From: an uncultured Clostridia bacterium
GTDB lineage: Bacteria; Bacillota; Clostridia; Oscillospirales; Ruminococcaceae
Direction: 5' to 3'
NCBI GenBank assembly: GCA_947627005.1
Contig: CANQUJ010000018.1
Location: 1-37,300 of the forward strand
DNA: 37,300 nt
Every line of letters begins with the position of its first letter. The first letter of the stretch is position 1. Below, piece after piece: positions 12,501 to 30,682 of the stretch. The notes beneath the pieces are model-generated. The model was not told the DNA's origin. It made no database searches and saw only the letters and a program-made list of their open reading frames with translations. The position numbers were made by a program, and so were the translations under genes.

Positions 12501-12508
12501 ACATATAC

Positions 12509-12537
12509 AAGATAGCAGTTTTAAACGCCGTTGTCAA
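12509..12537 (-). promoter_or_regulatory. Promoter of the diguanylate cyclase gene
   Basis: On the minus strand TTGACA (12537-12532), exactly 17 bp, and TATCTT (12514-12509). The predicted start of transcription (about 12502) is within a few bases of the ATG at 12500-12498. Confidence 0.7.
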
Positions 12538-12769
12538 TGCAATTTTCGGGTCTTTTAAGAAGATTTTTATCGCGAACGCTTTAAAACCCGCCGAATTTTG
12601 CCGAAAAAGGCAATTTTTAGGTAAATAAGATTAACGTTTACTAAGATTAAAAGACTTGAAAAACCGCCCCCGAAAAACGCCCGCAAAACCGCCCCCAAAG
12701 CGGCGGAACAAAGGGAATTTAAGGTGGTTAAGCGACTGACTTTAAATCATACTTTTTCTCCAAAAGGTG
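12538..12769. other. Gene-free stretch with a direct repeat and C-rich segment
   Basis: No gene is seen. It contains TAAGATTAA twice (12626-12634 and 12642-12650, 16 bp apart), a weak hairpin TTGCC/GGCAA followed by TTTTT (12598-12618), and a C-rich run with three CCGCCC or CGCCCG motifs (12663-12695). The direct repeat lies about 120-145 bp upstream of the -35 of the giant adhesin and could be a regulator site, but nothing proves it. Confidence 0.4.
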
Positions 12770-12798
12770 TTGACTTTTCTTGCGCTTTGGTGTAATAT
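12770..12798 (+). promoter_or_regulatory. Promoter of the giant adhesin gene
   Basis: TTGACT (12770-12775), 17 bp, TAATAT (12793-12798), preceded by TG. Transcription should start near 12805, leaving a leader of about 160 nt. Confidence 0.75.
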
Positions 12799-12804
12799 CA
12801 TAGT

Positions 12805-12966
12805 ATAACGTGGCGCGGAGCGTCAAGTTGCACAAAAATTTTAAAAAAATAATGAATTTTTTATCCTTCCTCGCTAAATTTGGCGGGGGGGGGTAAATTT
12901 TTACCATTAAAACCTCTTTATCCGAAAATGGTTGCCCCCGATTCCGTTTTTTAAGGAGAGATTACG
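12805..12966 (+). promoter_or_regulatory. Long 5' leader with a G9 tract
   Basis: The leader of the giant gene contains nine consecutive G (12885-12893), an inverted repeat GGTAAA/TTTACC (12892-12905) just after it, and GCCCCCG (12934-12940), which could pair with the G-run. AAGGAG lies at 12953-12958, eight bases before the ATG. The G-run is outside the coding sequence, so any length change would act on transcription or translation and would not shift the frame. Confidence 0.55.
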
Positions 12967-15900
12967 ATGAAACAAAACCGCGTTGTTGATTTTGCGCAAA
13001 AAATTCGTGAAAGGGTCTCTGCCGCGGCGGCGAAGCGCTTGGCGCGGGCCGCTTTGGCGGTCTGCCTTGTCGCGGGGTGCGCCGCGCTTTCGGCGACTGC
13101 AGTCAGCGCCGAGGGAACCCGCGACATCGTGCGAACCTCGCGCGAAAACTACGCGGCGGTGAAAAATGTAAGTCTGCCGTCAAACACCGCGGAGCAAACT
13201 TACAGTTTTCAGACCTATGACGGTTGGGACGGAAATATTGCAAGGTGGTGCTTTAGAGCTCAAGACGACTCTTTCGTAGGGGTAAACCGCCAGCAGAAGG
13301 TAAAATTCTACGCCAACGAGGGTGAAACTATATACATCGGTTCAAGCTCGGACAACGACACGAAGGATATAGTGATTACTCTCCCGGACGGAACTACGCA
13401 AAACGTTAATCTTACCGAGACGAGCGGAGCGATTCTTACCAAAGCCGAAGAGCTTGCCGGCCCCGAAGGGGTTTATTTGGACGGCAAATTAGTCGGCGAA
13501 GAAGGGTATAAACCGTATTCATTTAAGGCCGAGCAAAACGGAATGTATATGGTTACGCTTTATGCGGCGAACGAATCCGGCATTACAGTGAATACAGACG
13601 GAACAAAGAGCGATGTATCAAAATCGACTCTGGAAAAAACGTCGTTTGAAAAAGGAAAAGATACGATTGTATATGCTTGGGACGTTACGGTTACAAGAAC
13701 CGAGGACGGAAAACAGGTAGCTATTCCCGGGCGCGTGTGGATGGACGCTCTTGCAACCGAAATCGACGGCGGCAGCGGAATGTACGGCTATCTCTACGCC
13801 GTTTCGAGAGACGGCTATATCTGGAGATTCGGCCTCAACGGAATCAGACCGTATACCTTCGCTATGTATGCGAACACGCGCGGAAACATCAGCTCGGTGA
13901 CCAACGCCTCGTCCTATCACTCGGTGCACTCGCCGATAGATAACTATACGGCTTTCGACTTCTATAAAAATCTTAAAGACAAATACGGCAACCCCGACGG
14001 CGTATATCTTTTGGGGCCGGACAACGACGAGACCGACATAGATATGCCCTGCCACATGTTTCTCAACGAGCCGGACACAAACATTCCGGACACGATCGTT
14101 AAGACCACGGCGGAGAATCCCGGAACGCTTAAGACGATAAGATACGACGGCAGCGACGTTGAAGACGAAGCGGCGGGATCCGGCGGAGACGAAAAGAAGA
14201 ACAACCTCGGCTTTGTCGGGGTCGACGGATATTTCGAGATCGAGACCGAAAACGCCTCTTCATACCGCATTATCATTGATATGTCGAATATGTACGCCAT
14301 ATCTTATCACGGCGAAAATGATTCTGAACACAATACTTCGAATATTCACGACGACGAAATCTGCCTCGGCGCGGGGGACACCAAAGATGGCGTTATAGAT
14401 GACGGAATCGACCCGAACAACTTTATTTATCACGACAGCGCAAACCAGTGGTATGCAATCAGAACCATAAAGCAAACGGGCGGCAAGTGGGATCATCACC
14501 CTACAAACGAAATACCGGCTTCGGGAACCGCCAGCGAAGATGACTTTAGCAATATAATAAAAATAGTACCAATAGAAAGACCCCGGGAGTATAATAAAGA
14601 CGGCGAAGATTTTACCACAAAAGACGGCAAAGTGTATAAATGCCTCGGCAAGGTTCTTTTGGGCAACGCAGCGGTAAGCGGCAAGACCGACAGAATCAGA
14701 TGGAACGGCCGCGACCAATACGGCCGCGCGTTGCCGGTCGGCTGGTATTTCGGCACAACCGGCAGGGGGCAGATTTACGCCCAGATCAAAGCGGGCGAGG
14801 TCCACTTCCCGCTGTGCGACGTTGAGAATATGCCGAACGGCGTTTCGGTCAAGCTTATGAACCCGATCGACGACAACGTTTCAGTCGACAAAATTTCCAA
14901 GATTTACTACAACAACGAGGATAAAAGCCTTTTGCATGAATATCCGGCTACCGTTCCGAACAGCAAAAACGGAAGAATCTCTTGGATTTGGAACCTTCCA
15001 CAGGGCTCGAACTCAAAAGCGGGACAAACTACAACTAATGCCGGCAAATCGGATTGGCGCACGACCGGCGCAGTTTTTGAAAACTACAGTATAGACGGTA
15101 TCGCGAGCATAGTAGAAGCTGACGGCGTTGAAAAAATGACCAACAACGCGAGCAAGTTCCAAGACGGAACTACAAACAACGGCGATACCGGCTCCGACCA
15201 CGGCGTTGTAGACGTTTGGACTCACGTTATCGATCCGGAACAGCATAAGCTTAACGACACCATTTATCTCTACCACATTTCGGACCAGATGATAGTTCAG
15301 GGGTTTGTGTTCTTCGACGGCAACACCCCCGGCGGCGACAGCAAATACGACCTTTCCGGCAACGACACCGCGCTATACAACGCGACTGTTGTCGCGGAGT
15401 GGGGAGCGGTTACAAGCGCGTCGCTTGAAAAATATAATACCAGTAAAGACCCGACTGTGTTGGAATTCCAGAAAAACGGAAAAAATACATACGGCTATTA
15501 TAAAACCTCTACCAACACCGACGGTATTTACAGCATACCGATCGACACAACGCTGTTCCAAGTTCAGGGCAAGGCAACCGATTATGTAGCGAACACCGAG
15601 CACTATGTAAGAATAACCGTTACTTACGAAGACGAGCACACCGGCAAGGCGTCTATCACCACCCACAAGGTTACGACGGCGAGTGAAAAAGCAGCGCAGA
15701 AAATCGAAGAAAAACCTAACGTCAGCGTTCAGATTGTTTCGGTGAAGTCGTCCTATACGAACCTTAAGGAAATCAACGCCGAGCAGGTCGGCTATGCGAT
15801 CATGCCGACTACAAACCCGCTGAGAATCCGCAAAATATGGACTCCCGATCAGTTGAGAGACCCCTCGATGACCTCGACCTTCACCATTAAGGGAATACTC

Positions 15901-18900
15901 GCGAACGATGCGACTTCTGGAGAAGTGCCGGAAAAAGATAAAGCTTTTGATGACCCCGCAAAAATAGTCTTCACTCTCGAAAACGTCAGCGTCGACGAAA
16001 ACCTCGGCGGTATCGTCGACATAACCTCGTTGCCGCAGTATGGGTATACCATTGATGCGGATAAACATTTCTCGAGCGATGTTGTGCCGAACAACGTAGT
16101 ATCTGCCACCGGCTTGCAGAAGATTATATACAGAGTCGAAGAAAATCTTAAGAAAGAATCCGATAGTGCGATAGCTCCCGACATCTTGCACGACTCGAAT
16201 TATAATTTGGAGGGAACAACAGGCGGAGCAGGCACAACCGTTACGACCTTCGACTATTGGCAGTTTACCAACACGATTGAGACTTCGAGCCTTACCGTTA
16301 AGGTTTGGTATGATGAAGATAACGACGGCACGTTTGATACCGGCGAAGATAGCTACCTCGAAAATGCCGAGATAACTATGGGCGTTAAAGATCCGTCGTC
16401 CGGCGAACTTGAAGGGTTTAAAACTTTCCCCGGTTATAAACCCGGAGAAGAATATAAACTCGATCCCGTAATAATAGAACCGGACAAAGTCAACAACACA
16501 GATAAAGACGGCACATTTGAGTTTTCCGGCATAGGCGCGGGAGTCTATAATGTTACGGTAAAATTCCCGACCGCCGATAATTATAACACCTATTGGGAAA
16601 ACGGAGTTACATATAAGGCCGACGGCGACGTAAAGCGTATGATCTTTAATAAAGGCGTTCAGCAGAATATTGTAATCTCCGAATTTACAGTCGGCTCGGG
16701 CGACAACGGCGTTCTCGAAATTCGAGTCGGCGGGTTTGAGGACGTGATGTCGCTCGGCGACAAATTCACAATCAAAAAGCAGTTTACAAGCAACGCGGTC
16801 GACAAGATTCCGCAGGGCAGCGCCGAGTTTGGGCTGAAGATTCAGACCCACGGCGACGAGGGCGCGATGAACGACGTTTCGGAAGGAACGGCGACGGCGA
16901 CGGTCGACAGCGGGGCAATAAGCGGAGACAGCATCAACCCCGTAGATTTCGATCTTTCCGACTTCAAGGCGAAGATAACCTCTACCGAGAGCGTACTCCA
17001 TCTTTCCGAGAAGACAGATAGCGGCGAAGCCGGCTATATCGCGGGCGTGGACTACGATGAGTCGGAGTATGAAATTACCGTTAAGGCGACAAATATCCCG
17101 GGAGATGGCGGCCTCAACCCGACCACTACCTATACAATAAGCGAAGTTAAGAAAGTCAAAGATAAGGACGGCAAAGAGGTCGACGAAAAGATTGAGCTGA
17201 CCGGCGACAAATACAATATAACCTTTAAAAACGATTACAGCGTCGGCCGGCTGACGATAAAAATCGGCGAAACCGAGGGCGAATCTGTCGACAGGAACGC
17301 GAAGTTCGGTATCAGCCTTACTCCGGTCGGCGCCGCGCTTGCGGGTAAGACATATAAATATCAAGTTTTCAATTCCGACAATAGCACAGTCGGCGGCGAA
17401 AATACATTAACATTCGTTGACGGCGTTTTGAAAGTCTGCGATCTAACCGAGAAGCAGTATGTGGTCATCTATGATCTGCCGTTGGGCGTTTCATTGACAG
17501 TCGGCGAAAGCCTTGCGGACGGTTACATCCTCAAGGAAAAGAAAATTGACGACACAATATCTACAGATAACAACGTTGAGATTAAGGCGACCGCTGCGGA
17601 GGACGGATTGAACAACCGCACGGTTGAGTTTATAAACCTTCACAAAGAGGGCAGCCTTTCGATCACGAAGACCGTATCGGTCAAAGACCCGACCAAAGAC
17701 CCGGACTTTACCTTTAATATAACCATTGAGAAGCCCTCGGCCGCCGCGATTTCGGCGCTTTCGATCGCGAACAGCGTTAAAAAGAGCTACAACGTCGCGA
17801 GCCCGCTGATGACTAAGTCGACGATAAGCGCTCCCGCCCCGATCGCCGCGAGCGGATTCGACTATAGCCTTACGCTTAAGGTTACCGATAGCGAGGGAGA
17901 GGTCACCGGCTCGCCGACAAGCGTTAAGTTCACGGACGGCGGGGCGACGGTCAAGCTTAAAGACGGCCAAACCGCGACTATAAGCGGCCTGCCCGAGGGG
18001 TATAGCTACAAGGTTGTCGAGGCGGATATGCCCGCAGGGTATGTTGAGGCCGGCAAGGCGAACGATAGCGGCAAGATCGTTTATAACGACACCGCTGCGG
18101 CGACGTTTACGAACAATTTCGAGACCGGCGAGCTGTCCATCACGAACACGACGACCGACAATTCGACCGGCGAGTATACCTATACAATAGCGCTGACTGC
18201 GCCGGACGGCGTTGACTTCGCCGAGAGCTACACCTACACGGTCGGCGGCGATGAGCGCACCCTCACGGTTGGCGCGGGTGGCAAGGCGGAGCTCAAACTC
18301 AAAGGCGGCGAGACCGCACTAATAAAGGGCCTGCCGGCGGGGACGCACTTTGAAATCACCGAAACTCCCGCCTCGGGATATGTGCTGACCTATGTTACGG
18401 TCGACGGCGCCGAGGACGCGGATAAGACCGCAAACGGGACGATTCCCGACGGCTCGGAGATTGCCGCGCACTTCCGGAACTCGCCGGTGGTCACGGTGAC
18501 GATTAGCGGAACTAAGCAAATCGAGGGTATCCGCGACTGGAGCAGCGCCCTCGACAGCGGAAAATACAGCTTCACGATTGCGGCGACCGGCGAAAGCGCG
18601 AAGTATCTTCCCACGACCAAGACCGTTCAAAACAGTGACCATGAAGTCAAATTCGGCGAAATCACCTACGACAAGCCGGGAACTTACACCTACTCCGTGA
18701 GCGAGGAAGACATGCCTGCCGCAGTCGGCGGAGTGTCTAAAGACGAAAGCGTTTGGGAGGTTACGGTCACAGTTTCGATTGATTCGGCGACCCACGCGCT
18801 TAAAGTCGACAGCGTGAACTACTCGAAGACCGGCGTGGCAAGCGCGGGCGAGTTTACCTTCACGAATAAATATACCGCTGAGGCCGCAGAATTGACAAAT

Positions 18901-21900
18901 GATCAGAAAGCGCAGCTTAAGATCACCAAGAATCTGACCGGGCCTATCAGCGCTAAGACTAATCTTGAATACAGCTTTACCGTCACGAGGAAGAGCGCTC
19001 CGGCCGGCGCTTCCGCGACAACTTACAGCGGAGAAACCGTCAATATTACAGTCGGCGAAAAAGACGGACTTTACACCGGAGAAGGAAACATCAACCTCGA
19101 AGACGAATACACCTACCCCGGAGAATATGTTTACGAAGTTAGCGAAAATAGCGGCGCAGCTTCGGGCGTTACCTACGACAGCACGAAATACACCGTAACA
19201 GTGGTCGTTTCCGACAATAACAGGGGCGAACTTTCGGTCGCTTCGGTGACGATTACCGGCGGCAAAAACGACGGAAATATCGTATTTAACAACACATACA
19301 GCGTTGATCCGGTGACTGCGACTGACTTCGACATCAACAAAACTTTGAAGCTTGGCACGGAGAAGTTTAGCGGACAATTTGTCAATTTCCCCGAAGAATT
19401 CAAGTTTAAAGCGGTCATCAAAAAGGACGGTGCAGAAGTCTCCGACGGCACGGCAGGTTGGGAAGTCGGCGGAACGCTTTCGAGCAGCCAAGAATTGACG
19501 ATTTCTCAGACGGCCGGCGAGGTCGGCAGGGGCGCGACCACCGTTCTCGGGCCGAAATTCACCGCGGCCGGGACGTATGTCCTCGAGATTACCGAGCAAA
19601 ATCCGACCGATTCGCATATTACAAAGGACGGCCGCACGCTGACCGTGACCTACACCGTCACCGACGTCGGCGGCAAGTTGGAAGTGACGTCGACCTCGAC
19701 CGACGATCTCACCTTTAATAATATGTACGAGCCCGAAAAGACCGGCGTGACGGTGAACGTCAAGAAGAGATTGATTAACACGGTTACCAATGTTGACCTG
19801 CTCGACAATACGGATGGTCTCGGGGTCGAGGCTTATAACGGAAAGTTCAGCTTCAAACTTGAGAAAGCTGACGAGAACCCCGGCGCGACGATAAATGATT
19901 CAACCGCGACGAACGAATGGGGCGACGTCGATTTCGGCGGAAACGCGATCACCTTCGACCGCGCGGGGACGTTCAAGTTCAAGATTACCGAGACTTCGAG
20001 CGGCAGCGTCATCGAGGGCGAGCCGGAAATCACGACGAGCAAGGAAGAAATTTACGTCGTGTATGTGGTTACGGTCGACGAGGACGGAGAGCTCACAGTC
20101 GGCGCGCCGACATATTATAAGAACGGCACAGAACCTAAGGATATGTTAAAATCTGCGGACGAGGCGTTCTTCAAGAACACCTACGGTCCGGTGCCCTGCG
20201 TGTTGACGATCTCGAAGGAAATTGAGACCGAACCGGGCGGAATCGCAATCGACCAAAATCAGACCTTCACGTTTGAAATCAAGCTCGAGGACGGCAGCGC
20301 CGTTGCGGGGACTATACAGAAAGCGATCGACGAAGAAAAGATCTTCTACGTCTTCCAGCCCGCGGGCGGAATTATGACGACCGCGCTCGAAAGAAGCGGC
20401 GAGGGCGGCAGAATTACCGTTCACGATTCTACATTTGAGATCGAGCTCAAAGCCGGCCAAAGCGTGCAGATTCAAGGAATTCCGTACCTCACGAGCTACG
20501 CCGTGACCGAGAAAGACCTCCCGGCCGGCTACACGATTTCGGAGATTACGCACGACAAAACAACCGAAAGCAACCCCACTTCGGACTACTCTGTCGCCGG
20601 CGATTTCACCAAGGAGCAAGACAAAACAAACGTTAAATTCACTAACCTTTACACGCTCGAGGCGGGCGGGGACACGCTTCCGGAGCTCAAAAAAGTTCTT
20701 AGCGGCAGGGCTTTAGTCGACGGAGAATTCAGCTTCACGGCGACAATTGACTCGACGAACAACGGCGCGGTCTTCTCGTCGAACGGCGAAACCGAGCTGA
20801 CTGTTCGCAACTCAGCAGACGGCAAAATCACATTAGGAAACATCAATTTCACCAAGCCGGGGACTTACAAAGTCACGGTTAAGGAAAAAGTGGATATGAC
20901 CATCGGCGACGTGGAATTCGACGATAAGGAAATCGTCATCACCTACACGGTCACCGACGAAGATTCGACCGGCCGCAAGGACGGCGTGTTGCGGGTCTCC
21001 GGCCCGGTTATCGCCGACGGCGATGGGGAGTCCGACAACGATTTGACCTTCGAGAACGTCTTCGAGACCGGCAGCCTGTCCATCACGAACACGACGACCG
21101 ACAATTCGACCTACGAGTATACCTTTGAAATAACGCTGACTGCGCCGGACGGCGTTACCCTCGCCGAGAGCTACGCCTACACGGTTAATGACGTTGAGCA
21201 AAGCGAGCCTTTGAAGGTCGACGGCAACGTTATCACGCTCACGCTCAAAGGCGGCGAGACCGCGGTAATAAAGGGTCTGCCGGCGGGGACGACGTTTGAA
21301 ATCACCGAAACTCCCGCCTCGGGATATGTGCTGACCTACGTTGAGGTCGACGGCGCCGAAGACGCGGATAAGACCGCAAACGGTACGATTCCCAACGGCT
21401 CGGAGATTGCCGCGCACTTATGGAACTCGCCGACGGTCACGGTGACGATCAGCGGCACTAAGGAAATTTCCGGTATCCGCAAGTGGGACGACACCCTCGA
21501 TAGCGGAAAGTACAGCTTCACGATTACGGCCGGAGCCGGCACTGACGAGGCTTATCTCCCCGAGATCAAGACCGTTAAAAATGTAGGGCAGAGCATAACC
21601 TTCGATGAGATCACCTACGACAAGCCGGGGACTTACACCTACTCCGTGAGCGAGGAAGACGTGCCTGCCGCAGTCGGCGGAGTGTCTAAAGACGAAAGCG
21701 TTTGGACGGTGACGGTAACTGTCGTCACGGATTCGGACCACGCGCTTAAGGCCGACAGTGTGAACTACTCGAAGACCGGCGTGGCAAGCGCGGGCGAGTT
21801 TACCTTCACGAATAAATATACCGCTGAGGCCGCAGAATTGACAAATGATCAGAAAGCGCAGCTTAAGATCACCAAGAATCTGACCGGGCCAATCAGCGCT

Positions 21901-24900
21901 AAGACTAATCTTGAATACGAATTTACCGTCACGAGAATGGAGTTCTCCAATGGTCCCGAAGGCGTTGTGCCGCCGGATTACAGAGGTGAAACCGTCAATA
22001 TTACAGTCGGCGAAAAAGACGGACTTTACATCGGAGAAGGAAACATCAAGCTCGAAAACGAATACATCTACCCCGGAGAATATGCTTACGAGGTTAGCGA
22101 AAATAGCGGCGCAGCCTCGGGCATTACCTACGACAGCACGAAATACACCGTAACAGTGGTCGTTGAAGACAATAAAGACGGCACGCTTTCAGTCAAGTCG
22201 GTGGATATTACCGGCGACAAAAACGACGGAAAGATCGTATTTAACAACGAATACAGCGTCGAGCCGGTGGAGGCGGACGACTTCGAGATCGAAAAAACCT
22301 TGAAGCTTGACGCGGTGAAGTTTAGCGGACAATCCGTCAATTTCCCCGAAGACTTCAACTTCAACGCTGTCATCAAAAAGAACGGTGCGGAAGTTACCGA
22401 CGGCACGGCAGGCTGGGAAGTCGACGGAGCGCTTTCGAGCAGCACTAAATTGACGATTTCTCAGACGGCCGGTGAGGTCGGCAGGGGCACGACCACTGTT
22501 CTCGGGCCGAAATTCACCGCGACCGGGACGTATGTCCTCGAGATCACCGAGGAAAATCCGACCGATTCGCATATTGCCAAGGACGGCCGCACGCTGACCG
22601 TGACCTACACCGTCGCCGACGTCGGCGGCATGCTGGAAGTCGAGGCAAGTATGCCCTCCGACCTCACCTTTAATAATATTTACGAGCCTTCCCCGGTCAG
22701 CAGGACGGTGAGCGTCAAGAAGAAATTGATTAACACGGTTACAGATGTTGACCTGCTCGACGATTCGCTGGGGCACGGGGTCACCGCATATAAAGAAGCG
22801 TTCAGCTTCAAACTTGAGAAAGCCGACGAGAATCCCGGCGCGGAGGTAAAAGTCGATTCGGTCAATAATAACTGGGGCGACGTTGTGTTTACCGACAGCT
22901 CGAACCCGGAGTCGATCACTTTCGACCGCGCGGGGACGTTCAAGTTCAAGATCACCGAGACTTCGAGCGGCAGCGTCATCGAGGGCGAGCCGGAAATCAC
23001 GACGAGCACGGAAGAAATCTACGTCGAGTATGAAGTTTCGGTCGACGAGAACGGCAAACTCACAGTCGGCGCGCCGACATATACGAAGAAGGTCGACTCC
23101 GAATCTGCGGAAACATCAATAACAGAGGCCGAGGCTTTCTTCACAAACACCTACGGGCCGGTGCCCTGCGTGCTGACGATTTCTAAGGAAATCACGACCA
23201 ATCCGGACGGAATCGCGATCGACCGGGATCAGACCTTCACGTTTAGAATCACGCTCGAGGACGGCGGCGCCGTTGCGGGGACTATACAGAAAGCGATCGA
23301 CGAAGGAAAAATCTTCTACGTCTACCAGCCCGCGGGCGGAATTATGACGACAGCGCTCGAAAGGAGCGGCGAGGGCGGCAGAATTACCGTTAATTCGGCT
23401 ACATTTGAGATAGAGCTCAAAGCCGGGCAAAGCGCGCAAATTCAAGGAATTCCGTACCTCACGCGCTACACCGTGACCGAAAAAGACCTCCCGGACGGCT
23501 ACTCGATTTCGGGGGTTACGCACGACGGAGCGACCGAAAACAACCCTGTTGAGGGCGCGTTTGGCAGCATCGAAGACGACAGCACAGAAGTTAATTTCAC
23601 TAACCTTTACACTCTCAATCCGGCCGAGGCCACGCTTCCGGAGCTCACAAAAGTTCTTAGCGGCAGGGCTTTAGTCGACGGAGAATTCAGCTTCACGGCG
23701 ACAATTGACTCGACGAACAACGGCGCGGTCTTCTCTTCAAACGAAAGCACCGAGCTGACTGTTCAGAACTCCGCAGACGGCAAGATCACATTAGGAAACA
23801 TCAATTTCACCAAGCCGGGGACTTACAAAGTCACGGTTAAGGAAAATGTGGATATGACCCTCGGCGACGTGGTCTTCGACGATAAGGAAATCGTTATCAC
23901 CTACAAGGTCACCGACAATAAGAACGGCACGCTGCGGGTCTCCGGCCCGGTTGTCGTCGACAACGATGGGAAGTCCGACAACGATTCGACCTTCGAGAAC
24001 GTCTTCAAGACCGGCGATTTGTCCATCACGAACACGACGACCGACAATTCGGCCGGCGAATATACCTATACAATAGCGCTGACTGCGCCGAGCGGCGTTG
24101 ACTTCGCCGAGAGCTACACCTACACTATTGGAGAGACCGATTACAATCTTACGGTCGACTCTGACGGCAAGGCGGAGCTCAAGCTCAATGGCAGCGAAAC
24201 CGCGGTAATAAAGGGTCTGCCGGCGGGGACGACGTTTGAAATCACCGAAGCTCCCGCCTCGGGATACGTGCTGACCTACGTTGAGGTCGGCGGCGCCGAA
24301 GACGCGGATAAGACCGCAAACGGTACGATTCCCAACGGCTCGGGGATTGCCGCGCAGTTCCGGAACTCGCCGAAGGTCACGCAGATAATTAGCGGAACTA
24401 AGGAAATTTCTGGTATCCGCAAGTGGGACGACTCCCTCGACAATGAGGTGTACAGCTTCACGATTACGGCCGGAGCCGGCACTGACGAAGCTTATCTCCC
24501 CGAGACGACGACTGTTAATAACGATAAAACGAGCATAACCTTCGCCGAAATCACCTACGACCAAGCCGGGATTTACACCTACACCGTGAGCGAGGACAAC
24601 GCCGCAATGCCCGGAGGAATCACGAGGGACGAAAGCGTTTGGACGGTGACGGTCACAGTTTCGATTGATTCGACGAGCCACGCGCTGACCAAGAGCGTGA
24701 AATATGAGTGCGACGGTGAGTCGAACACGAGCGGATTTACTTTCACGAATACATATACCGCCAAGGCGACGGCCGAGCCGCAAACGCTTGAAATCACGAA
24801 GAAAATCGCGACGAACGAGGGGATTAACCCCGCGGCGGAGGTCTACCGCTTCGAGGCCGAGAGGGTCTTGCCGGCGGGCGACGAGTTCTCGAAGACCTAC

Positions 24901-27900
24901 ACGATTTCGATGGCCGCGGGCGAGCTTGAAAAGTCGGCGGAGATCGAGCTCGAGACCTATACCGAACCCGGCGAATACGTCTACGAGATCGCAGAAATCG
25001 CGGGCGGAACGGTCGGAATGACCTACGATTCGGGCAGATTTAAGGTCACGGTCGAGGTTTCGGACGACAGCGTCGGCGGACTTCATTCCGAGATCAAGTC
25101 GATCGAGAAAATCGGCGAGGGCGAAGTCGCAGACGTTGTATTCGAGAACAAATTCGCGACCGGCACCCTCGAGATAACAAAGAAAACGCGCGGACTCGGC
25201 GTAGATCCGCTCGAAGAATTTAAATTCACGATAAGCCTTAAGGACGAAAACGGCGAACCGCTTTCGGGCGAATACGGCTATACCACAGAAGGCTTAGGGT
25301 TCAGGCCGTTCGGCCCGGCGCCCTTCGCTCTCGCAAACCTTAATGTAGTCTCGGACGGCTCGGAGATAAGCCTTAAGGCGGGGGATACCGTTAAGATAGT
25401 TGGGCTTCCGGTCGGGGCGGTATATACCGTTTCGGAGGAAGACGCCGGCGGATACAGCGTGTTCGTTTCGACAAATTCGGGGGCGGAGGTTGAATCCGCT
25501 TCGGCGAGCGGTATAATAGTCGACGGAACGACCTCGCTCGTATTCGTCAACGAAAAGCAGAAGCAGTTTGAGTTCAAGCAGTTCGCGTTTAAGAACGAGA
25601 TCTATCCCGGCGACGGCGAGAGCGTCGAGCCCGGGGACGAGATAATCTATGAGCTCGGCTGGCAGAACCCGACCCTTAAGGAAGCGACCATCGTCATCAC
25701 CGACAAATTAGACAACCACGTCGAATATGTCGACACCGGCGACGAAAGGCTTTCCTACGATCCCGGGACCCACACCGTCACCGCGACTGTCGAGGCAGGG
25801 CCGCTTAAGAGCGGAACGCTCGAGCTTACCGTAAGGGTAAAGGCCGGGGCGCATGGAGACATCGAAAACAAGGCCACGGCGACAGTCGACGGAACGGAAT
25901 ACGAATGTGAGACCGAAGAGATCAAAAACCCCGTCGCGGGGATAACGGTTGAAAAGGCGCAGTCGCTTAACGGCGGAGAGAAGACGGACAGTCTTGTCGA
26001 GGCGCGGCGCGGCGACGTTATAACCTATTATCTGACCGTCACCGCGAACAGCGAAGACCCGAGCGCGGTCGAGAAAAACGTGACCGTTAAGGATATAATT
26101 CCCGAGGGGTTAAGCGTCGTCGCGGGCTCGGTATCAGACGGCGGAGAGATCGACGAAAACGGCCTTATGAGCTGGAATCTGGGCGAGCTTGCGGCCGGCG
26201 AAAGCGTTACCGTAAGCTACTCGGTCGAGATTCCGCAGGTTTCAAAAGACTCGACCTGGAGCGGCAAGGGATACGTCTATGCCGGGGAAGACCCCGCCGA
26301 GAACGAGCCGGACGACTCGAAGATTGGCGAAGAGGGGTATCACTGGAAGGCTTCGGAAGAGCTTAGCGCGCACGCGGTCGGCGACCTTGTTCTTACCAAG
26401 CGGGTAGTATCAACAGACGGCTCTTCGATACCGTTCGGGGTAGAGTTTGACTTTACGATCGAGCTTAGCCTTAACGGCGAACCTCTTGCCGGGGGATATG
26501 TATACGAGACCACAAGCGGCGCAAGCGGCGCGGTCTTCGACGGAAAGCTTGAAACAGAGCTTGCGGACGGCGAGAGCGTTACGATTAAATCCCTCCCGGC
26601 GGGGGTGGAATACCGCATAACCGAGTCGCCGGTCGTGAATTATCAAAGCGACAAGACCGATAATATCGACTTCGGAGCGGTTTTGAACACCGCAAACGAG
26701 GTTATATTCACCAACGACTACTCCTTCGTCGCGGCCGAAGTCGGCGGACTTACTGTCACGAACGTCGTTATCGGCGAGCCGGAGGATCTTGAAAAGACAT
26801 TCACCTTTACGGTAACCCTTCTTGACGGCGGAATCAACGGAACCTACGGCGAGATGACATTTATCGACGGAGTCGCGACCTTTACCCTTTCAAACGGAAT
26901 GTCGATAGAGGCGCGCGGTCTGCCCTCGCATATCGGATATACCGTATCCGAGGCCGAGGCGAACGCCGAGGGCTTTACCACCCAGTCGGTAAACGCCGAG
27001 GGCGCTATCCCGGTCGGGACTTCGGCGGACGCGGTGTTTACAAACTTCAAGCGGGCTTCGGCTTCGGGCAAGCTTGTTATCCGCAGCACAGTCGACGGAA
27101 CGATTCAGGACGAAGCCGCAAGCTACGGCTTCACCGTAACCCTCGACGACCCCGGGGTCAACGGCCTTTACGGCGACCTATTCTTTGAAAACGGCGTCGC
27201 GAGGGCGGCGATAGTCGGCTCGTCTTCGGTAAGCGCGAGCGGCCTTCCCGCAGGGGCGGGATACAGCGTCGTCTTCGACGGCGCGTTCGGCGGCGGAATA
27301 AGCGTTTCGGCGCATAACGACGTCGGGGCGATCCCGGCGGGCGGAACCGCGACCGCAGACTTTGTTATAAGACGCGAGCTCGGAAACCTTACGGTTATGA
27401 AGACCGTTTCGGGCGAGGCGCCCCTTGCCCCGCAGGAATACGGCTTCACCGTAACCCTTGACGACTTCAACATCAACGGAACCTACGGCGAGATGACGTT
27501 TATCGGCGGAACGGCTTCGTTCAGCCTTTCGGGCGGGCAGAGCGCTACCGCATACGGCCTTCCCGCTGGGGTCGGGTATTCGGTATCCGAGGAGCCGGGG
27601 GCGGGGTATACCGTTTCGGCCTCGGGCAATATCGGGGTCATTCCCCAAAGCGCGACAGCGACCGCCTCGTTTATAAACGCTTACGCCGCGCCGCTAAGCC
27701 TTACGATAACCAAGGCGACGGTCGGCAAGCCGGCCGAGCTTCCGTTCGACTTCAGGGTGACCTTGACTCCTCCCGCAGGAGAGAGCCTCGATTCTGTTGC
27801 GGGCATAATGCTCGACGAGTTCGGGGCCGGAGTGATCCAAATCTACGGCGGGCAGAGCGCGATCATTTCGGGTATTCCCGAGGGGACGCAATATACGGTC

Positions 27901-29733
27901 GAAGAGCTTTATTCCGGCACGGAATTTAACACCGAGCCCGCAAAGAGCGGAATAATTTCGGCGGCAGGGGAAGCGGTTACATTCGTCAACACGAGAAAAG
28001 TCGGCTCGCTGACCGTTCGGAATACTATCGTCGGAACCGCGGCAGACCAAAACAGAGCGTTTAACTTTACCGTAACCTTAAGCGACCCGAGCATAAACGG
28101 CAGATTCGGGGATATGACCTTTGTCGGCGGAACGGCCTCGTTCGCGCTTTCCGGCGGGCAGAACGTTACGGCCTCCGATCTTCCGGCGGGAACAGGCTTT
28201 ACGGTTTACGAGACCGACGCCGGGGCAGACGGCTATACTGCGACGGTGTTCGGCCTGCCGGCGGAATCGGGATACAGCGGCTTTATCGCCGAAAACGCCG
28301 ACAGCGCGGTCGAGTTTATAAACGAAAAGAACGGCGCGCCCGCCTTGGGCGGAAGCCTTACCGTCATCAACAACGTCATCGGAACCACCACCGACGAGCT
28401 GTTTACCTTTACCGTCAGATTTACCGACCTTTCGGGCAATATCGTCTTTCAGAACGCGCCCGCGGCGATAGGTTTTGCGCCGTTTGCGGCAACTTCCGGC
28501 GAGCCGGTGTATAACCCCGACGGAACCGTCACCGTTTCGCTTAGGCACGGCGAAAGCCAAACCTTTACCGGCCTTCCGGCCGAGACGCTCTACGAAGTGG
28601 TCGAGACCAGAAACCTCTATTATTCGGTGACCTCGATAACCCCGCAGGGGCTTATCCCGGACGGCAGCATGGCGGTCGCGGTGTTTAACAACAGGTGGAA
28701 TGCCGGCGGGCTTGATATTTCGGTCAAGGTCGAAAACGACCTCGGCGCGATCCTGGATTACGACGAATCGGAATACGAGTTCACCGTCACATTGAGCGAT
28801 TTCGACGGCAGCACGCTCTCCGGCTTCGTATATCCCTCCCACATTCCCGCCTCGGGTTGGGGAGAGACCGACGCGGACGTTTTGATGAGCTTTGACGAAA
28901 ACGGCGTCGCCACATTCACCCTTAAAAACGGGCAGAGCGCTTCTGCGCCCGATCTTCCGGGCGGGATCGGCTATACGATCGAGGCCGTGTCGAAGGACGG
29001 AAGATATATCGGCAAGATCTCGGGGACTAATACCGAAATCGCCTCGGGCAATACCGTCGCGTCCGAAAATGCAAGCGAAGACTTCACATTCATCATTCGC
29101 ACCGGCTCGATAAAAATTACTAAGACCCTTCTAAACTACTACGGCGAGCTTCTTGACAGCAAGAGGGTCGGCTTCGAGTTCGAGGTCAAGCTTGTCGCCC
29201 CGGACGGAAGCGTTCTTAAGGGCGCGTACGTCTATTCTGACGGCGAGCACAGAGGAGCGATAGAGAGCGGCGATAAAGTCACCGTATACAACGAAGAGCC
29301 GCTGACCATCTCCGGAATCCCCGAGGGGACGAGTTACGAGATTATCGAAGAGTCGAAGCAGGGCTATATGATTACCGAAAAAACCGGCATAGAGGGGACC
29401 GTCTCGGTCGGGGCGACAGCCGAAGTCGGCTATACCAACAAGATCGCGGGAATGATCCCGCCGGTTCCGGCCGACCAAAAAGACCCTGACGACGATAAAC
29501 CCTCGGGCGGCGGTGGCGGAGGCGGAACCGAGCCCGACGAACCCGAAGACCCGGACGATGGTCAGACCGAAGTAATTCCGGGCGACGACATTATCATCGA
29601 CCGCCCGACCGAAGGCGCGTTTGCGGCCGAAGACCCGGCCTCTGCCGTAAAAAGAGCGGCGGCAAAGGGGGCCTTCCCCGCGGCGCTCGGGCTTGCGGCG
29701 CTGGTGCTTTCAAGGCGGCTTAGGGCTAAATAG
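12967..29733 (+). CDS. Giant repetitive surface adhesin (pilin-like isopeptide and Cna-B-like domains), 5588 aa
   Basis: A huge stalk-like surface protein. A long basic N-terminus with a hydrophobic core (about 24-50, ending SATAVSAEG) serves for export. Residues about 50-1100 form a non-repetitive head. An SdrD-B-like module (about 1108-1250, with VWYDEDNDGTFDTGED) follows. Next come FctA/Spy0128-type and Cna-B-like domains to about 1718, the 981-residue super-repeats (1719-3934), further such domains to about 4198, and two DUF11-like domains (about 4199-4470). About nine DUF5979/Cna-B-like domains (4473 to about 5490) end the array. A Gly/Pro/Asp linker, a short hydrophobic segment (AAALGLAALVL region) and RRLRAK close the protein. 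There is no LPXTG. Most repeat domains show a Lys near the start (ITKNL, ISGTK), a Glu in the YEVSE-type strand and a terminal FxNxY Asn, the known triad for self-formed isopeptide bonds. The adhesive role is inferred. Confidence 0.93.
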   Translation: MKQNRVVDFAQKIRERVSAAAAKRLARAALAVCLVAGCAALSATAVSAEGTRDIVRTSRENYAAVKNVSLPSNTAEQTYSFQTYDGWDGNIARWCFRAQDDSFVGVNRQQKVKFYANEGETIYIGSSSDNDTKDIVITLPDGTTQNVNLTETSGAILTKAEELAGPEGVYLDGKLVGEEGYKPYSFKAEQNGMYMVTLYAANESGITVNTDGTKSDVSKSTLEKTSFEKGKDTIVYAWDVTVTRTEDGKQVAIPGRVWMDALATEIDGGSGMYGYLYAVSRDGYIWRFGLNGIRPYTFAMYANTRGNISSVTNASSYHSVHSPIDNYTAFDFYKNLKDKYGNPDGVYLLGPDNDETDIDMPCHMFLNEPDTNIPDTIVKTTAENPGTLKTIRYDGSDVEDEAAGSGGDEKKNNLGFVGVDGYFEIETENASSYRIIIDMSNMYAISYHGENDSEHNTSNIHDDEICLGAGDTKDGVIDDGIDPNNFIYHDSANQWYAIRTIKQTGGKWDHHPTNEIPASGTASEDDFSNIIKIVPIERPREYNKDGEDFTTKDGKVYKCLGKVLLGNAAVSGKTDRIRWNGRDQYGRALPVGWYFGTTGRGQIYAQIKAGEVHFPLCDVENMPNGVSVKLMNPIDDNVSVDKISKIYYNNEDKSLLHEYPATVPNSKNGRISWIWNLPQGSNSKAGQTTTNAGKSDWRTTGAVFENYSIDGIASIVEADGVEKMTNNASKFQDGTTNNGDTGSDHGVVDVWTHVIDPEQHKLNDTIYLYHISDQMIVQGFVFFDGNTPGGDSKYDLSGNDTALYNATVVAEWGAVTSASLEKYNTSKDPTVLEFQKNGKNTYGYYKTSTNTDGIYSIPIDTTLFQVQGKATDYVANTEHYVRITVTYEDEHTGKASITTHKVTTASEKAAQKIEEKPNVSVQIVSVKSSYTNLKEINAEQVGYAIMPTTNPLRIRKIWTPDQLRDPSMTSTFTIKGILANDATSGEVPEKDKAFDDPAKIVFTLENVSVDENLGGIVDITSLPQYGYTIDADKHFSSDVVPNNVVSATGLQKIIYRVEENLKKESDSAIAPDILHDSNYNLEGTTGGAGTTVTTFDYWQFTNTIETSSLTVKVWYDEDNDGTFDTGEDSYLENAEITMGVKDPSSGELEGFKTFPGYKPGEEYKLDPVIIEPDKVNNTDKDGTFEFSGIGAGVYNVTVKFPTADNYNTYWENGVTYKADGDVKRMIFNKGVQQNIVISEFTVGSGDNGVLEIRVGGFEDVMSLGDKFTIKKQFTSNAVDKIPQGSAEFGLKIQTHGDEGAMNDVSEGTATATVDSGAISGDSINPVDFDLSDFKAKITSTESVLHLSEKTDSGEAGYIAGVDYDESEYEITVKATNIPGDGGLNPTTTYTISEVKKVKDKDGKEVDEKIELTGDKYNITFKNDYSVGRLTIKIGETEGESVDRNAKFGISLTPVGAALAGKTYKYQVFNSDNSTVGGENTLTFVDGVLKVCDLTEKQYVVIYDLPLGVSLTVGESLADGYILKEKKIDDTISTDNNVEIKATAAEDGLNNRTVEFINLHKEGSLSITKTVSVKDPTKDPDFTFNITIEKPSAAAISALSIANSVKKSYNVASPLMTKSTISAPAPIAASGFDYSLTLKVTDSEGEVTGSPTSVKFTDGGATVKLKDGQTATISGLPEGYSYKVVEADMPAGYVEAGKANDSGKIVYNDTAAATFTNNFETGELSITNTTTDNSTGEYTYTIALTAPDGVDFAESYTYTVGGDERTLTVGAGGKAELKLKGGETALIKGLPAGTHFEITETPASGYVLTYVTVDGAEDADKTANGTIPDGSEIAAHFRNSPVVTVTISGTKQIEGIRDWSSALDSGKYSFTIAATGESAKYLPTTKTVQNSDHEVKFGEITYDKPGTYTYSVSEEDMPAAVGGVSKDESVWEVTVTVSIDSATHALKVDSVNYSKTGVASAGEFTFTNKYTAEAAELTNDQKAQLKITKNLTGPISAKTNLEYSFTVTRKSAPAGASATTYSGETVNITVGEKDGLYTGEGNINLEDEYTYPGEYVYEVSENSGAASGVTYDSTKYTVTVVVSDNNRGELSVASVTITGGKNDGNIVFNNTYSVDPVTATDFDINKTLKLGTEKFSGQFVNFPEEFKFKAVIKKDGAEVSDGTAGWEVGGTLSSSQELTISQTAGEVGRGATTVLGPKFTAAGTYVLEITEQNPTDSHITKDGRTLTVTYTVTDVGGKLEVTSTSTDDLTFNNMYEPEKTGVTVNVKKRLINTVTNVDLLDNTDGLGVEAYNGKFSFKLEKADENPGATINDSTATNEWGDVDFGGNAITFDRAGTFKFKITETSSGSVIEGEPEITTSKEEIYVVYVVTVDEDGELTVGAPTYYKNGTEPKDMLKSADEAFFKNTYGPVPCVLTISKEIETEPGGIAIDQNQTFTFEIKLEDGSAVAGTIQKAIDEEKIFYVFQPAGGIMTTALERSGEGGRITVHDSTFEIELKAGQSVQIQGIPYLTSYAVTEKDLPAGYTISEITHDKTTESNPTSDYSVAGDFTKEQDKTNVKFTNLYTLEAGGDTLPELKKVLSGRALVDGEFSFTATIDSTNNGAVFSSNGETELTVRNSADGKITLGNINFTKPGTYKVTVKEKVDMTIGDVEFDDKEIVITYTVTDEDSTGRKDGVLRVSGPVIADGDGESDNDLTFENVFETGSLSITNTTTDNSTYEYTFEITLTAPDGVTLAESYAYTVNDVEQSEPLKVDGNVITLTLKGGETAVIKGLPAGTTFEITETPASGYVLTYVEVDGAEDADKTANGTIPNGSEIAAHLWNSPTVTVTISGTKEISGIRKWDDTLDSGKYSFTITAGAGTDEAYLPEIKTVKNVGQSITFDEITYDKPGTYTYSVSEEDVPAAVGGVSKDESVWTVTVTVVTDSDHALKADSVNYSKTGVASAGEFTFTNKYTAEAAELTNDQKAQLKITKNLTGPISAKTNLEYEFTVTRMEFSNGPEGVVPPDYRGETVNITVGEKDGLYIGEGNIKLENEYIYPGEYAYEVSENSGAASGITYDSTKYTVTVVVEDNKDGTLSVKSVDITGDKNDGKIVFNNEYSVEPVEADDFEIEKTLKLDAVKFSGQSVNFPEDFNFNAVIKKNGAEVTDGTAGWEVDGALSSSTKLTISQTAGEVGRGTTTVLGPKFTATGTYVLEITEENPTDSHIAKDGRTLTVTYTVADVGGMLEVEASMPSDLTFNNIYEPSPVSRTVSVKKKLINTVTDVDLLDDSLGHGVTAYKEAFSFKLEKADENPGAEVKVDSVNNNWGDVVFTDSSNPESITFDRAGTFKFKITETSSGSVIEGEPEITTSTEEIYVEYEVSVDENGKLTVGAPTYTKKVDSESAETSITEAEAFFTNTYGPVPCVLTISKEITTNPDGIAIDRDQTFTFRITLEDGGAVAGTIQKAIDEGKIFYVYQPAGGIMTTALERSGEGGRITVNSATFEIELKAGQSAQIQGIPYLTRYTVTEKDLPDGYSISGVTHDGATENNPVEGAFGSIEDDSTEVNFTNLYTLNPAEATLPELTKVLSGRALVDGEFSFTATIDSTNNGAVFSSNESTELTVQNSADGKITLGNINFTKPGTYKVTVKENVDMTLGDVVFDDKEIVITYKVTDNKNGTLRVSGPVVVDNDGKSDNDSTFENVFKTGDLSITNTTTDNSAGEYTYTIALTAPSGVDFAESYTYTIGETDYNLTVDSDGKAELKLNGSETAVIKGLPAGTTFEITEAPASGYVLTYVEVGGAEDADKTANGTIPNGSGIAAQFRNSPKVTQIISGTKEISGIRKWDDSLDNEVYSFTITAGAGTDEAYLPETTTVNNDKTSITFAEITYDQAGIYTYTVSEDNAAMPGGITRDESVWTVTVTVSIDSTSHALTKSVKYECDGESNTSGFTFTNTYTAKATAEPQTLEITKKIATNEGINPAAEVYRFEAERVLPAGDEFSKTYTISMAAGELEKSAEIELETYTEPGEYVYEIAEIAGGTVGMTYDSGRFKVTVEVSDDSVGGLHSEIKSIEKIGEGEVADVVFENKFATGTLEITKKTRGLGVDPLEEFKFTISLKDENGEPLSGEYGYTTEGLGFRPFGPAPFALANLNVVSDGSEISLKAGDTVKIVGLPVGAVYTVSEEDAGGYSVFVSTNSGAEVESASASGIIVDGTTSLVFVNEKQKQFEFKQFAFKNEIYPGDGESVEPGDEIIYELGWQNPTLKEATIVITDKLDNHVEYVDTGDERLSYDPGTHTVTATVEAGPLKSGTLELTVRVKAGAHGDIENKATATVDGTEYECETEEIKNPVAGITVEKAQSLNGGEKTDSLVEARRGDVITYYLTVTANSEDPSAVEKNVTVKDIIPEGLSVVAGSVSDGGEIDENGLMSWNLGELAAGESVTVSYSVEIPQVSKDSTWSGKGYVYAGEDPAENEPDDSKIGEEGYHWKASEELSAHAVGDLVLTKRVVSTDGSSIPFGVEFDFTIELSLNGEPLAGGYVYETTSGASGAVFDGKLETELADGESVTIKSLPAGVEYRITESPVVNYQSDKTDNIDFGAVLNTANEVIFTNDYSFVAAEVGGLTVTNVVIGEPEDLEKTFTFTVTLLDGGINGTYGEMTFIDGVATFTLSNGMSIEARGLPSHIGYTVSEAEANAEGFTTQSVNAEGAIPVGTSADAVFTNFKRASASGKLVIRSTVDGTIQDEAASYGFTVTLDDPGVNGLYGDLFFENGVARAAIVGSSSVSASGLPAGAGYSVVFDGAFGGGISVSAHNDVGAIPAGGTATADFVIRRELGNLTVMKTVSGEAPLAPQEYGFTVTLDDFNINGTYGEMTFIGGTASFSLSGGQSATAYGLPAGVGYSVSEEPGAGYTVSASGNIGVIPQSATATASFINAYAAPLSLTITKATVGKPAELPFDFRVTLTPPAGESLDSVAGIMLDEFGAGVIQIYGGQSAIISGIPEGTQYTVEELYSGTEFNTEPAKSGIISAAGEAVTFVNTRKVGSLTVRNTIVGTAADQNRAFNFTVTLSDPSINGRFGDMTFVGGTASFALSGGQNVTASDLPAGTGFTVYETDAGADGYTATVFGLPAESGYSGFIAENADSAVEFINEKNGAPALGGSLTVINNVIGTTTDELFTFTVRFTDLSGNIVFQNAPAAIGFAPFAATSGEPVYNPDGTVTVSLRHGESQTFTGLPAETLYEVVETRNLYYSVTSITPQGLIPDGSMAVAVFNNRWNAGGLDISVKVENDLGAILDYDESEYEFTVTLSDFDGSTLSGFVYPSHIPASGWGETDADVLMSFDENGVATFTLKNGQSASAPDLPGGIGYTIEAVSKDGRYIGKISGTNTEIASGNTVASENASEDFTFIIRTGSIKITKTLLNYYGELLDSKRVGFEFEVKLVAPDGSVLKGAYVYSDGEHRGAIESGDKVTVYNEEPLTISGIPEGTSYEIIEESKQGYMITEKTGIEGTVSVGATAEVGYTNKIAGMIPPVPADQKDPDDDKPSGGGGGGGTEPDEPEDPDDGQTEVIPGDDIIIDRPTEGAFAAEDPASAVKRAAAKGAFPAALGLAALVLSRRLRAK
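18121..21063 (+). repeat. Adhesin super-repeat unit 1 (2943 bp, residues 1719-2699)
   Basis: Seven domains in order, which I label a-g: a starts GELSITNTTTDNS; b contains ISGTKQIEGIRDW; c contains LKITKNLTGPISAK; d contains DINKTLKLGTEKF; e contains VNVKKRLINTVTNVD; f contains CVLTISKEIETEPGG; g contains ELKKVLSGRALVDG. Each ends in an F[TNKE]N-type motif. The unit repeats next door with the same domain order. Confidence 0.88.
21064..24006 (+). repeat. Adhesin super-repeat unit 2 (2943 bp, residues 2700-3680)
   Basis: Same seven domains and exactly the same length as unit 1, although small in-frame indels inside shift the register by 3 bp and are balanced later. Some parts are almost identical at DNA level: 18814-18972 matches 21760-21918 with a single mismatch. 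Others, such as the segment before GETVNITVGEKDGLY, have diverged. Confidence 0.88.
24007..24770 (+). repeat. Adhesin super-repeat unit 3, partial (domains a and b)
   Basis: Domain a (GDLSITNTTTDNS) and domain b (ISGTKEISGIRKWDDS) are close to those of units 1 and 2. The next domain (about residues 3935-4065, with LEITKKIATNEG) is only a distant version of domain c. The duplication therefore ends, or has decayed, near 24770. Confidence 0.8.
26383..29450 (+). repeat. C-terminal DUF5979/Cna-B-like domain array of the adhesin
   Basis: About nine related domains of about 100 residues with the pattern LTVxNxVxG...FxFTVTL..., INGTYGEMTF..., a QSATAxGLPAGxGYxV strand and a closing FxN. Start motifs include LVLTKRVVS, LTVTNVVIG, LVIRSTVDG, LTVMKTVSG, LTITKATVG, LTVRNTIVG, LTVINNVIG, LDISVKVEN and IKITKTLLN. 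These are more diverged from each other than the 981-residue units are. Confidence 0.8.
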
Positions 29734-29744
29734 ACAAAATAAAT

Positions 29745-29777
29745 CGCCTCGGCGGATATCCGTCGGGGCGTTTTTTT
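29745..29777 (+). terminator. Terminator of the giant adhesin gene
   Basis: CGCCTCGGCGGAT pairs with ATCCGTCGGGGCG (29745-29770, two G-T pairs), followed by seven T. It lies 11 bp after the stop codon, and its T-run abuts the stop codon of the converging ZIP transporter gene. Confidence 0.85.
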
Positions 29778-30576
29778 ATCCGAGCATAACGTCTAAAAGC
29801 ATCATCAGCGCGAAGCCGGAAACTATCCCCATAGTCGCGAAATAGGGCGAAGTATCGCGGTCGCTCTGACATTCGGGTATAAGCTCGTGAACCGCGACGA
29901 GTATCATCGCCCCCGCCGCGAACGATAGCGCATAGGGCAGCATAGCCTCGACGTATACGACGAGCAGCGCGCCGATAACTCCGGCGACCGGCTCTACCGC
30001 GCCCGAAGCCTGGCCGAGAAGAAAGCTCTTTTTTCTGGAATATCCCTCTCGCCTTAATGGCAGCGAGACCGCCGCGCCCTCCGGGAAATTCTGAAGCCCT
30101 ATCCCCACGGCGATGGTTATCGCGCCCATAAGCGCCTCGGCGGTATATCCGCCGTTTTTAAGCGCCCCGAACGCCACCCCGACCGCCAAGCCCTCGGGTA
30201 TGTTGTGAAGCGTGATCGAAAGCACGAGCATTATGATTCGGTTCAGCCGCTCGTTCGGCCTTCCCTGCGCGATATCCGCCTTTCTTCTTGCAAACGATAC
30301 CGCCTTATCCGACCCCCACATAAACAGCGCGCCGAGCAAAAACCCCGCCGTCGCGACGATATATGCCGGAAGGCCGGGGGCGGCCTCGGCGCGCTCTATC
30401 GCGGGCTGTAAAAGCGACCAGAAGCTTGCGGCTATCATAACCCCCGAAGCGAAGCCGAGCATTATGTTCATTATTTTTTGATTCGGCGATTTGAAAAAGA
30501 CGACGGTCGCCGCGCCGAGAGCGGTTACAAGCCAAGTCCCGAGCGTGGCGATCAGCGCCGCTAAAACAAGATTCAT
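29776..30576 (-). CDS. ZIP-family divalent metal transporter, 266 aa
   Basis: A membrane protein that moves zinc or other divalent metals into the cytoplasm. About eight hydrophobic segments are visible. The transport-site motifs are complete: HNIPEG at 124-129, QNFPEG at 162-167 and HELIPE at 230-235. The cytoplasmic loop between segments 3 and 4 (about 92-112) is short and basic. It resembles bacterial ZupT and the GufA-like branch. I chose the ATG at 30576, which has GGGAGGTG correctly spaced; the frame to 30615 would start before the likely promoter. The gene converges on the giant adhesin and shares its terminator region. Which metal it carries cannot be read from the sequence. Confidence 0.92.
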   Translation of the reverse strand: MNLVLAALIATLGTWLVTALGAATVVFFKSPNQKIMNIMLGFASGVMIAASFWSLLQPAIERAEAAPGLPAYIVATAGFLLGALFMWGSDKAVSFARRKADIAQGRPNERLNRIIMLVLSITLHNIPEGLAVGVAFGALKNGGYTAEALMGAITIAVGIGLQNFPEGAAVSLPLRREGYSRKKSFLLGQASGAVEPVAGVIGALLVVYVEAMLPYALSFAAGAMILVAVHELIPECQSDRDTSPYFATMGIVSGFALMMLLDVMLG

Positions 30577-30594
30577 ACGGCACCTCCCATATCC

Positions 30595-30600
30595 ATTATA
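30595..30600 (-). promoter_or_regulatory. Probable -10 box of the ZIP transporter gene
   Basis: TATAAT on the minus strand (30600-30595). The -35 position 17 bp upstream reads GTAACC, a poor match. A start near 30588 would give a short leader that still holds the ribosome binding site. Confidence 0.4.
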
Positions 30601-30682
30601 TTTTGCGGGAGGCATATGGTTACGCCGCGAAAAAAATTCGCGAAAAAGTCGGGTCGGCGAAGGTTTTTTCGCGGGATTTTAT

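Follow-up and report, generated by a model that had tools for sequence, protein, structure and literature searches.

A giant putative fibrillar adhesin of an uncultured Clostridia bacterium carries a duplicated block of seven unlike domains

Bacterial surface tethers that change length have been described, in the portions of the literature drawn on here, as arrays of near-identical single domains (PMC8201768, PMC9704523), and identical adjacent domains have been proposed to risk misfolding (PMC8201768). Tandem repeats are frequent in long surface proteins, according to the cited part of an isopeptide-domain survey (PMC12617251). Within the literature searched, the nearest architecture to the one described here is that of the giant adhesin of Mobiluncus mulieris, which has 7651 aa and 51 Ig-like domains; in the sections cited, its authors presume that it grew via domain duplication by recombination (PMC10619420). 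Among the matches listed from the open-licence literature on giant isopeptide adhesins, repeat recombination and bacterial super-repeats, the excerpts gave no account of the arrangement reported below. Here, blocks of unlike domains have been copied in one piece, and the same is seen in a few related ORFs with other block sizes; thus, the growth of giant adhesins becomes readable from sequence. Block copying would also keep identical domains from sitting side by side.

We find one ORF of 5588 aa at positions 12967-29733 of the window's plus strand, the strand on which all features of the protein given below lie. The window, the whole stretch of DNA analysed, is the entire contig C18 (37,300 bp) of a 2.07-Mb draft genome that comprises 48 contigs and is 99.3% complete. 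The frame is without internal stops and open throughout. Its upstream neighbours, on the opposite strand, encode a GGDEF protein and a GH98 family glycosidase (minus strand, 8160-10562), the latter close to the adhesin gene; its downstream neighbour, also on the opposite strand, encodes a ZIP transporter. The GH98 family is known for blood-group-type glycans. A 996-aa ORF elsewhere in the window (plus strand, 1137-4127) has no Pfam or NCBIfam match. A repeat that is modular and apparently non-coding occupies positions 1-700 and 33278-34562. Searched against the genome at E <= 0.001, the first 420 bases of the contig give 48 matches (self included), in pieces, and a 77-bp exact copy occurs at positions 1 and 330 within this contig-end repeat. 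The contig may break at this end because the modular repeat sits there.

Most probably, the protein is a fibrillar adhesin made of one giant chain, in which a secreted head would be carried on an isopeptide-type Ig-like chain and a stalk. The features of such adhesins that are present are a signal-like N-terminus, which implies secretion, a distinct aligned head and a domain array. The signal peptide, recognized in the sequence, comprises residues 1-48 (12967-13110), with a putative cleavage site at AVSA^EG; AEGTR is the consensus for the first residues of the aligned heads. The N-terminal head (approximately residues 49-1100; 13111-16266) was aligned with 8 of the 14 named relatives. Searches with the first 1100 residues of the protein returned no family at E <= 0.1 from either Pfam or NCBIfam and no convincing PDB chain (best E 0.1). 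The heads of other members gave only weak Pfam matches (FlgD_ig in 2/9, Big_1 in 1/9), and an AlphaFold model of the head (mean pLDDT 49) is strand-rich at low confidence.

Behind the head, intermediate Ig-like domains lead up to the repeat (16267-18120), with an FctA match at 16768-17241 and the best DUF7601 stretch at residues 1562-1717. A DUF7601/DUF5979 stalk (25156-29454) is colinear with that of four orthologues. Pfam matches to FctA extend over five stretches in the first part of the protein (E = 2.4e-50) and nine in the second (E = 8e-100), where DUF7601 matches 14 stretches (E = 1e-196); DUF5979 is also matched along the ORF. Thirteen of the 22 matches to FctA (PF12892) in the genome fall in this ORF, each above the curated cut-off. 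The source genome has a second giant FctA ORF (L033, G000:C1:73000-91000) of 4159 codons with nine FctA matches.

The chain ends in a low-complexity segment (29455-29733) made up, as read from the sequence, of RPTEG, a weak hydrophobic stretch and a basic tail. A search for sortase-anchor features at this C-terminus found no xPxTG motif and just a 15-aa hydrophobic stretch (KD 1.87) with the basic tail. A sorting motif is present in two of six C-termini examined (NPETG in L032, SPKTG in L033), and a T-E-G/A motif (PTEG, ATEG or PTEA) is common to five of the six, the sixth, L032, having PIEG. The 3' ends of orthologues L028 and L029, as assembled, have no hydrophobic segment. Three sortase genes are present in the source genome.

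Seven consecutive domains of the chain recur as a block. Unit 1 (domains a-g, 18121-21063), delimited by domain comparison and DNA search, and unit 2 (a2-g2, 21064-24006) have 981 codons each. They are followed by a partial third copy of 257 codons, a3 and b3 (24007-24777), recognized by domain comparison, and then by domain c3 (24778-25155), whose counterpart in four orthologues comes after their best unit-like block. The starts of domain a, at 18121, 21064 and 24007, are spaced by the two steps of 2943 bp that had been claimed. When unit 1 was searched against the DNA of the source genome, the matches besides the query were unit 2 (84% across the full 2943 bases, E = 0) and the partial third copy (79%), with nothing further in that genome; the seven-domain tandem duplication proposed at first pass is therefore real. 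Among viral contigs, seven pattern matches were obtained for relatives of the unit, and none was confirmed. Domains of the same type score 175-242 bits between units 1 and 2, whereas cross-type pairs score at most 48 bits, the value for c with c3. Since c and c2 score 207 bits, c3 is not a third c.

The duplicated block looks real and fairly old, judging from the divergence of its copies. The alignment of units 1 and 2 spans 970 codons, has 22 gap columns and shows an identity of 85.1% in bases and 78% in residues (dS 0.22, dN 0.15); base identity per domain ranges from 0.80 (e) to 0.92 (g). The first-pass annotation had suggested a recent event; with 85% of bases shared and a dS of 0.22, the duplication is not recent. 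The same annotation had drawn attention to the equal length of the units despite indels. This is true: nine indel events add up to 11 codons in each direction, a net of zero. However, random signs on the same nine indel sizes give a net of zero with P = 0.098, so the equal length carries little information and needs no special explanation. The slip of register within the units is likewise present, although not as the 3 bp described, since the local lag varies between 2940 and 2970 bp.

Differences at 15% of bases together with nine indels mean that neither unit was made by the assembler. An artefact, in which the single units of two strains were chained into one contig or the repeat was expanded, is thus highly improbable, and the earlier worry about expansion loses its force. 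It is true that the genome is a draft in 48 contigs and that the units share exact repeats of 131, 87 and 62 bp, which suffice to branch a short-k graph. Short reads also fail to resolve repeats, as the cited part of a review of Periscope Proteins states (PMC9704523). Nevertheless, the frame stays open, the g-a2 and g2-a3 junctions are both present and are unlike in sequence, and other genomes, drafts too, also have super-repeats. The source genome may hold further hidden copies.

The head is present in 4 of the 30 other genomes of the genus; these are drafts (76-100% complete), so an absent head may be a gap. In the four orthologues, head and stalk are colinear with those of the window protein. 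In all four, the best unit-like block (167-290 bits; 29-32% identity to unit 1) continues into a c3-stalk block (33-39% identity), as in L032, where the unit-like block at 1714-2639 is followed by the c3-stalk block at 2692-3303. Weaker unit matches elsewhere in the orthologue arrays reach 119 bits among the matches listed, at most three per pair (L028 1884-2818, unit 2). We read these as general domain likeness; an older divergent copy is possible. The single best block running into c3 in 4/4 orthologues points to a probable gain of the second unit in the window lineage. The most parsimonious reading makes both this unit and the a-b pair ahead of c3 gains of that lineage.

Gene order around the giant gene is partly retained among orthologues. 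L031 (G022) keeps the order GGDEF - giant gene - ZIP (window 10740-30615), with the giant gene reversed relative to ZIP; because of this reversal, inverted repeats flanking the giant gene were sought, and no exact 11-base seed was found. L032 retains ZIP and the window's orientation and has an Na/H exchanger on the other side.

A scan of genome contigs with six exact peptide patterns matched 59 stretches, from which 14 head relatives (L014-L027) were confirmed. All 14 records are MAGs with isolate names starting with 'Lapin', labelled Lachnospiraceae, Monoglobus, Ruminiclostridium or Clostridia. 'Lapin' is French for rabbit, and we take these MAGs to come from rabbit gut. The shared origin of these differently labelled MAGs suggests a host-linked adhesin head common to several Clostridia lineages. 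No paper on this set of MAGs turned up in the literature searched, a term search of PMC11199578 included. Of 394 genomes sampled from the order, the head profile picks out 11 at E <= 1e-20, four of them (source genome included) nearly full length; one of the four, G176, may be the genome of profile member L027, a 5561-residue ORF being found in both.

Similarity between units 1 and 2 is a patchwork, as first described, and strongly so at the amino-acid level. Residue differences are clustered, with a dispersion at 30 codons of 3.56 against 0.97 expected (0/3000 permutations as high) and of 2.5-3.6 against ~1 over five window sizes (reached by 0/3000 stratified permutations). The comparison in windows proposed at first pass thus gave the expected patches for residues but close to uniform differences for silent sites. 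Codons for the same residue in both units carry silent changes in 80/747 cases (p = 0.21 for a dispersion of 1.16 in windows of 25 codons), and silent clustering falls below p = 0.05 at two of seven window sizes, uncorrected. The longest exact repeat is a 131-bp identity island that runs from the last part of b into the first part of c (18814-18944), identical to 21760-21890 in the second copy. Over the wider stretch reported earlier (18814-18972 against 21760-21918), 158 of 159 bases match, the sole mismatch being at 18945. The patchwork of which this stretch is part had been taken as a sign of gene conversion or recent unequal crossing-over. However, the longest silent-unchanged run, 43 codons, has a permutation p of 0.44 among same-residue codons alone, against p = 0.013 for the 43-codon identical run with the residue pattern kept. 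Because silent differences are near uniform, the island is not by itself proof of gene conversion; we rejected it in that role on the silent-site test, while the run test leaves room for conversion.

Could selection alone have made these patches? On such a reading, an illegitimate tandem duplication at short homology was followed by selection that kept strands and linkers and diversified surface loops, and neither gene conversion nor homologous crossover is needed. The near-even silent differences (five of seven window sizes not significant) and a dN/dS of about 0.69 speak for it, as does the finding that residues conserved in relatives are more often identical between the units (0.89, against 0.71 for unconserved ones). 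Yet at the scale of windows, identity between the units shows no link to conservation in the four orthologues (rho 0.15, p = 0.41, 32 windows), conservation of the island there is 0.32 against an average of 0.35, and residue clustering persists with conservation class held fixed. Family-wide constraint as the cause of the patchwork therefore holds only in part, by position and not by window. Silent change, moreover, climbs with local residue divergence, from 5/106 to 27/143 codons, a correlation that is weaker at low divergence (r = 0.076, p = 0.04, 604 codons). With the over-long identical run and the switching patterns of three copies described below, silent sites included, we regard selection alone as possible but unlikely. 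For units 1 and 2 by themselves, exchange, fast loops or alignment are all possible sources of the patchwork.

The three copies of the a-b pair show a mosaic. Site patterns that group two of the three copies form 47 runs against 85 expected at the codon level (0/20,000 shuffles), and silent sites alone give a modest departure (17 runs against 23 expected, p = 0.02, n = 34). In segments whose limits were picked after bins of site patterns had been viewed, unit 2 and copy 3 are closest over residues 1779-1895 (82% aa identity; units 1-2, 76%; unit 1-copy 3, 68%), whereas units 1 and 2 are closest over residues 1896-1985 (92%, against 59% and 59% for the other two pairs). The inferred switch lies inside domain b at 18640-18660, with unit 2 resembling copy 3 on its left and unit 1 on its right. 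A unit 2 that is nearest first to copy 3 and then to unit 1 is what unequal crossover between the first and last a-b pairs predicts. Over residues 1779-1895, silent change is 9/96 for unit 2-copy 3 and 12/79 for copies 1-3, a small contrast; the former value resembles the 80/747 for units 1 and 2 overall, as one event predicts. Residues 1719-1778 misfit a simple crossover, which makes another exchange necessary: here the closest pair is copies 1 and 3 when residues are compared (78%, against 62% and 55%) but units 1 and 2 when silent sites are (1/37 changed). The history of exchange between copies proposed at first pass is thus best backed by this mosaic, without the recent date attached to it (dS 0.22).

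We propose that, in the window lineage, an a-b copy was first placed between g and c3. Unequal homologous crossover between the two a-b pairs, within b near base 18650, would then have added one unit of 2.9 kb. Divergence of the copies since then would have reached ~0.2 silent changes per site, residue change falling mainly in short variable stretches, and the start of domain a would have taken part in one or more further exchanges. Functionally, the extra unit would make the tether seven domains longer. The same layout would also follow from one illegitimate duplication and later loss. Taken as a whole, a fibrillar adhesin lengthened through crossover between a-b pairs, with a longer tether and an uncrosslinked domain a, is the best explanation, and we consider it likely.

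Chains of isopeptide Ig-like domains are inextensible and keep a head at a distance from the cell, and Lys, an acidic Glu and Asn are the crosslink residues of FctA/Spy0128-like domains. Sequence comparison places all three as expected in b, c, d, e and g, in their second copies, and in b3 and c3; the Lys is present throughout b-g and b2-g2, f and f2 included. The six domains per unit with the Lys-Glu-Asn set are expected to form the isopeptide bond. Domain a (DUF7601) lacks the crosslinking Lys and has Asn there in a, a2 and a3; it should thus be uncrosslinked and the most extensible domain. Asn likewise takes the place of Lys in three stalk domains (near 4596, 5009 and 5130), and among the best a-like domains of relatives this position varies (Lys, Asn or Gln), so the uncrosslinked state is neither a family rule nor unique to a. 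The tether would then contain a periodic extensible domain, and its regular position amounts to a direct mechanical prediction.

Super-repeats are present in 5 of 21 ORFs examined, namely the window protein and 4 of 20 others. The survey took the longest ORF per locus and combined lag scans with 100-residue chunks; a super-repeat had to show a lag of 400 residues or more and cover 300 residues or more in matches with no less than 50% identity. It left out L016 and L017 (same contigs as L029 and L028) and L021 (a short fragment), and because L014, L015, L018-L020 and L022-L027 end at the fetched stretch, super-repeats beyond it would be missed. The lag is 980-990 residues (seven domains) in the window protein, 877-879 (~6 domains) in L029 and 546-554 (~4) in L027, both of which carry the head, and 617-633 (~5) in L057 and 434-445 (~3) in L056, giant FctA ORFs from genomes that hold a head relative; domain numbers outside the window protein are deduced from spacing. 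L058 has the usual single-domain kind of repeat (lag 131, 86%). With copy limits set by hand, base identity of the pairs is 85.1% in the window, 85.5% in L027 and 85.2% in L056, against 78% in L029, 74% in L057 and just 57% in the next L056 pair. That three pairs stop near 85% may reflect a limit of short-read assembly, a reading based on these three cases.

Tentatively, gut-clostridial isopeptide adhesins might change length by heritable cassettes of 3-7 unlike domains rather than by single domains, those of the window each with one uncrosslinked and six crosslinkable domains, and younger cassettes might be hidden in short-read assemblies; we hold this generalization to be doubtful. If true, each added cassette would mean more reach and one extensible element at fixed spacing, and short-read assemblies would show only cassettes diverged to ~85%, hiding younger, more variable ones. 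Still less probable is a length-variable protein of the Periscope type, with unit number shifting often within species. Long tandem copies in a surface tether and the super-repeats of related ORFs fit such a protein, but frequent exchange would be expected to leave more than 85% DNA identity and exact repeats longer than 131 bp, adjacent domains within the unit are unlike one another, and length variation peaked at the highest repeat identity in the cited part of the Periscope survey (PMC8201768). Assignment to the Periscope Proteins was rejected on the domain scores (cross-type <= 48 bits against 175-242 for the same type).

Super-repeats are also described in titin (PMC10665226, among others). 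There, as here, Ig-like multi-domain blocks recur as a higher-order unit, an analogy only. Titin is a eukaryotic muscle protein, and no kinship with the window protein is implied. By profile, the window protein shares its domain family with the Spy0128/FctA T-antigen major pilins (PF12892), and domain c has a weak direct match to T18.1 (8f70, E = 3.5e-6). These pilins are short subunits polymerised by sortase, whereas the window protein has 13 FctA matches in one chain. It resembles the Periscope Proteins (SasG, Rib, Sgo_0707) in having a repeat-domain tether whose number can change by recombination; in the portions cited, neighbouring domains of those proteins are nearly identical (82-100% for SHIRT; PMC8201768, PMC9704523). 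In the window protein, neighbours are unlike, and the seven-domain block alone recurs, at 78% residue identity. Like the Mobiluncus mulieris adhesin, as far as the cited sections describe it, the window protein is a giant single chain with a long Ig-like array that includes Spy0128-type isopeptide domains. The Mobiluncus protein has 18 ester-bond domains and an LPxTG anchor, whereas the window protein has no xPxTG and, unlike its counterpart, carries a seven-domain unit duplicated as a block (PMC10619420).
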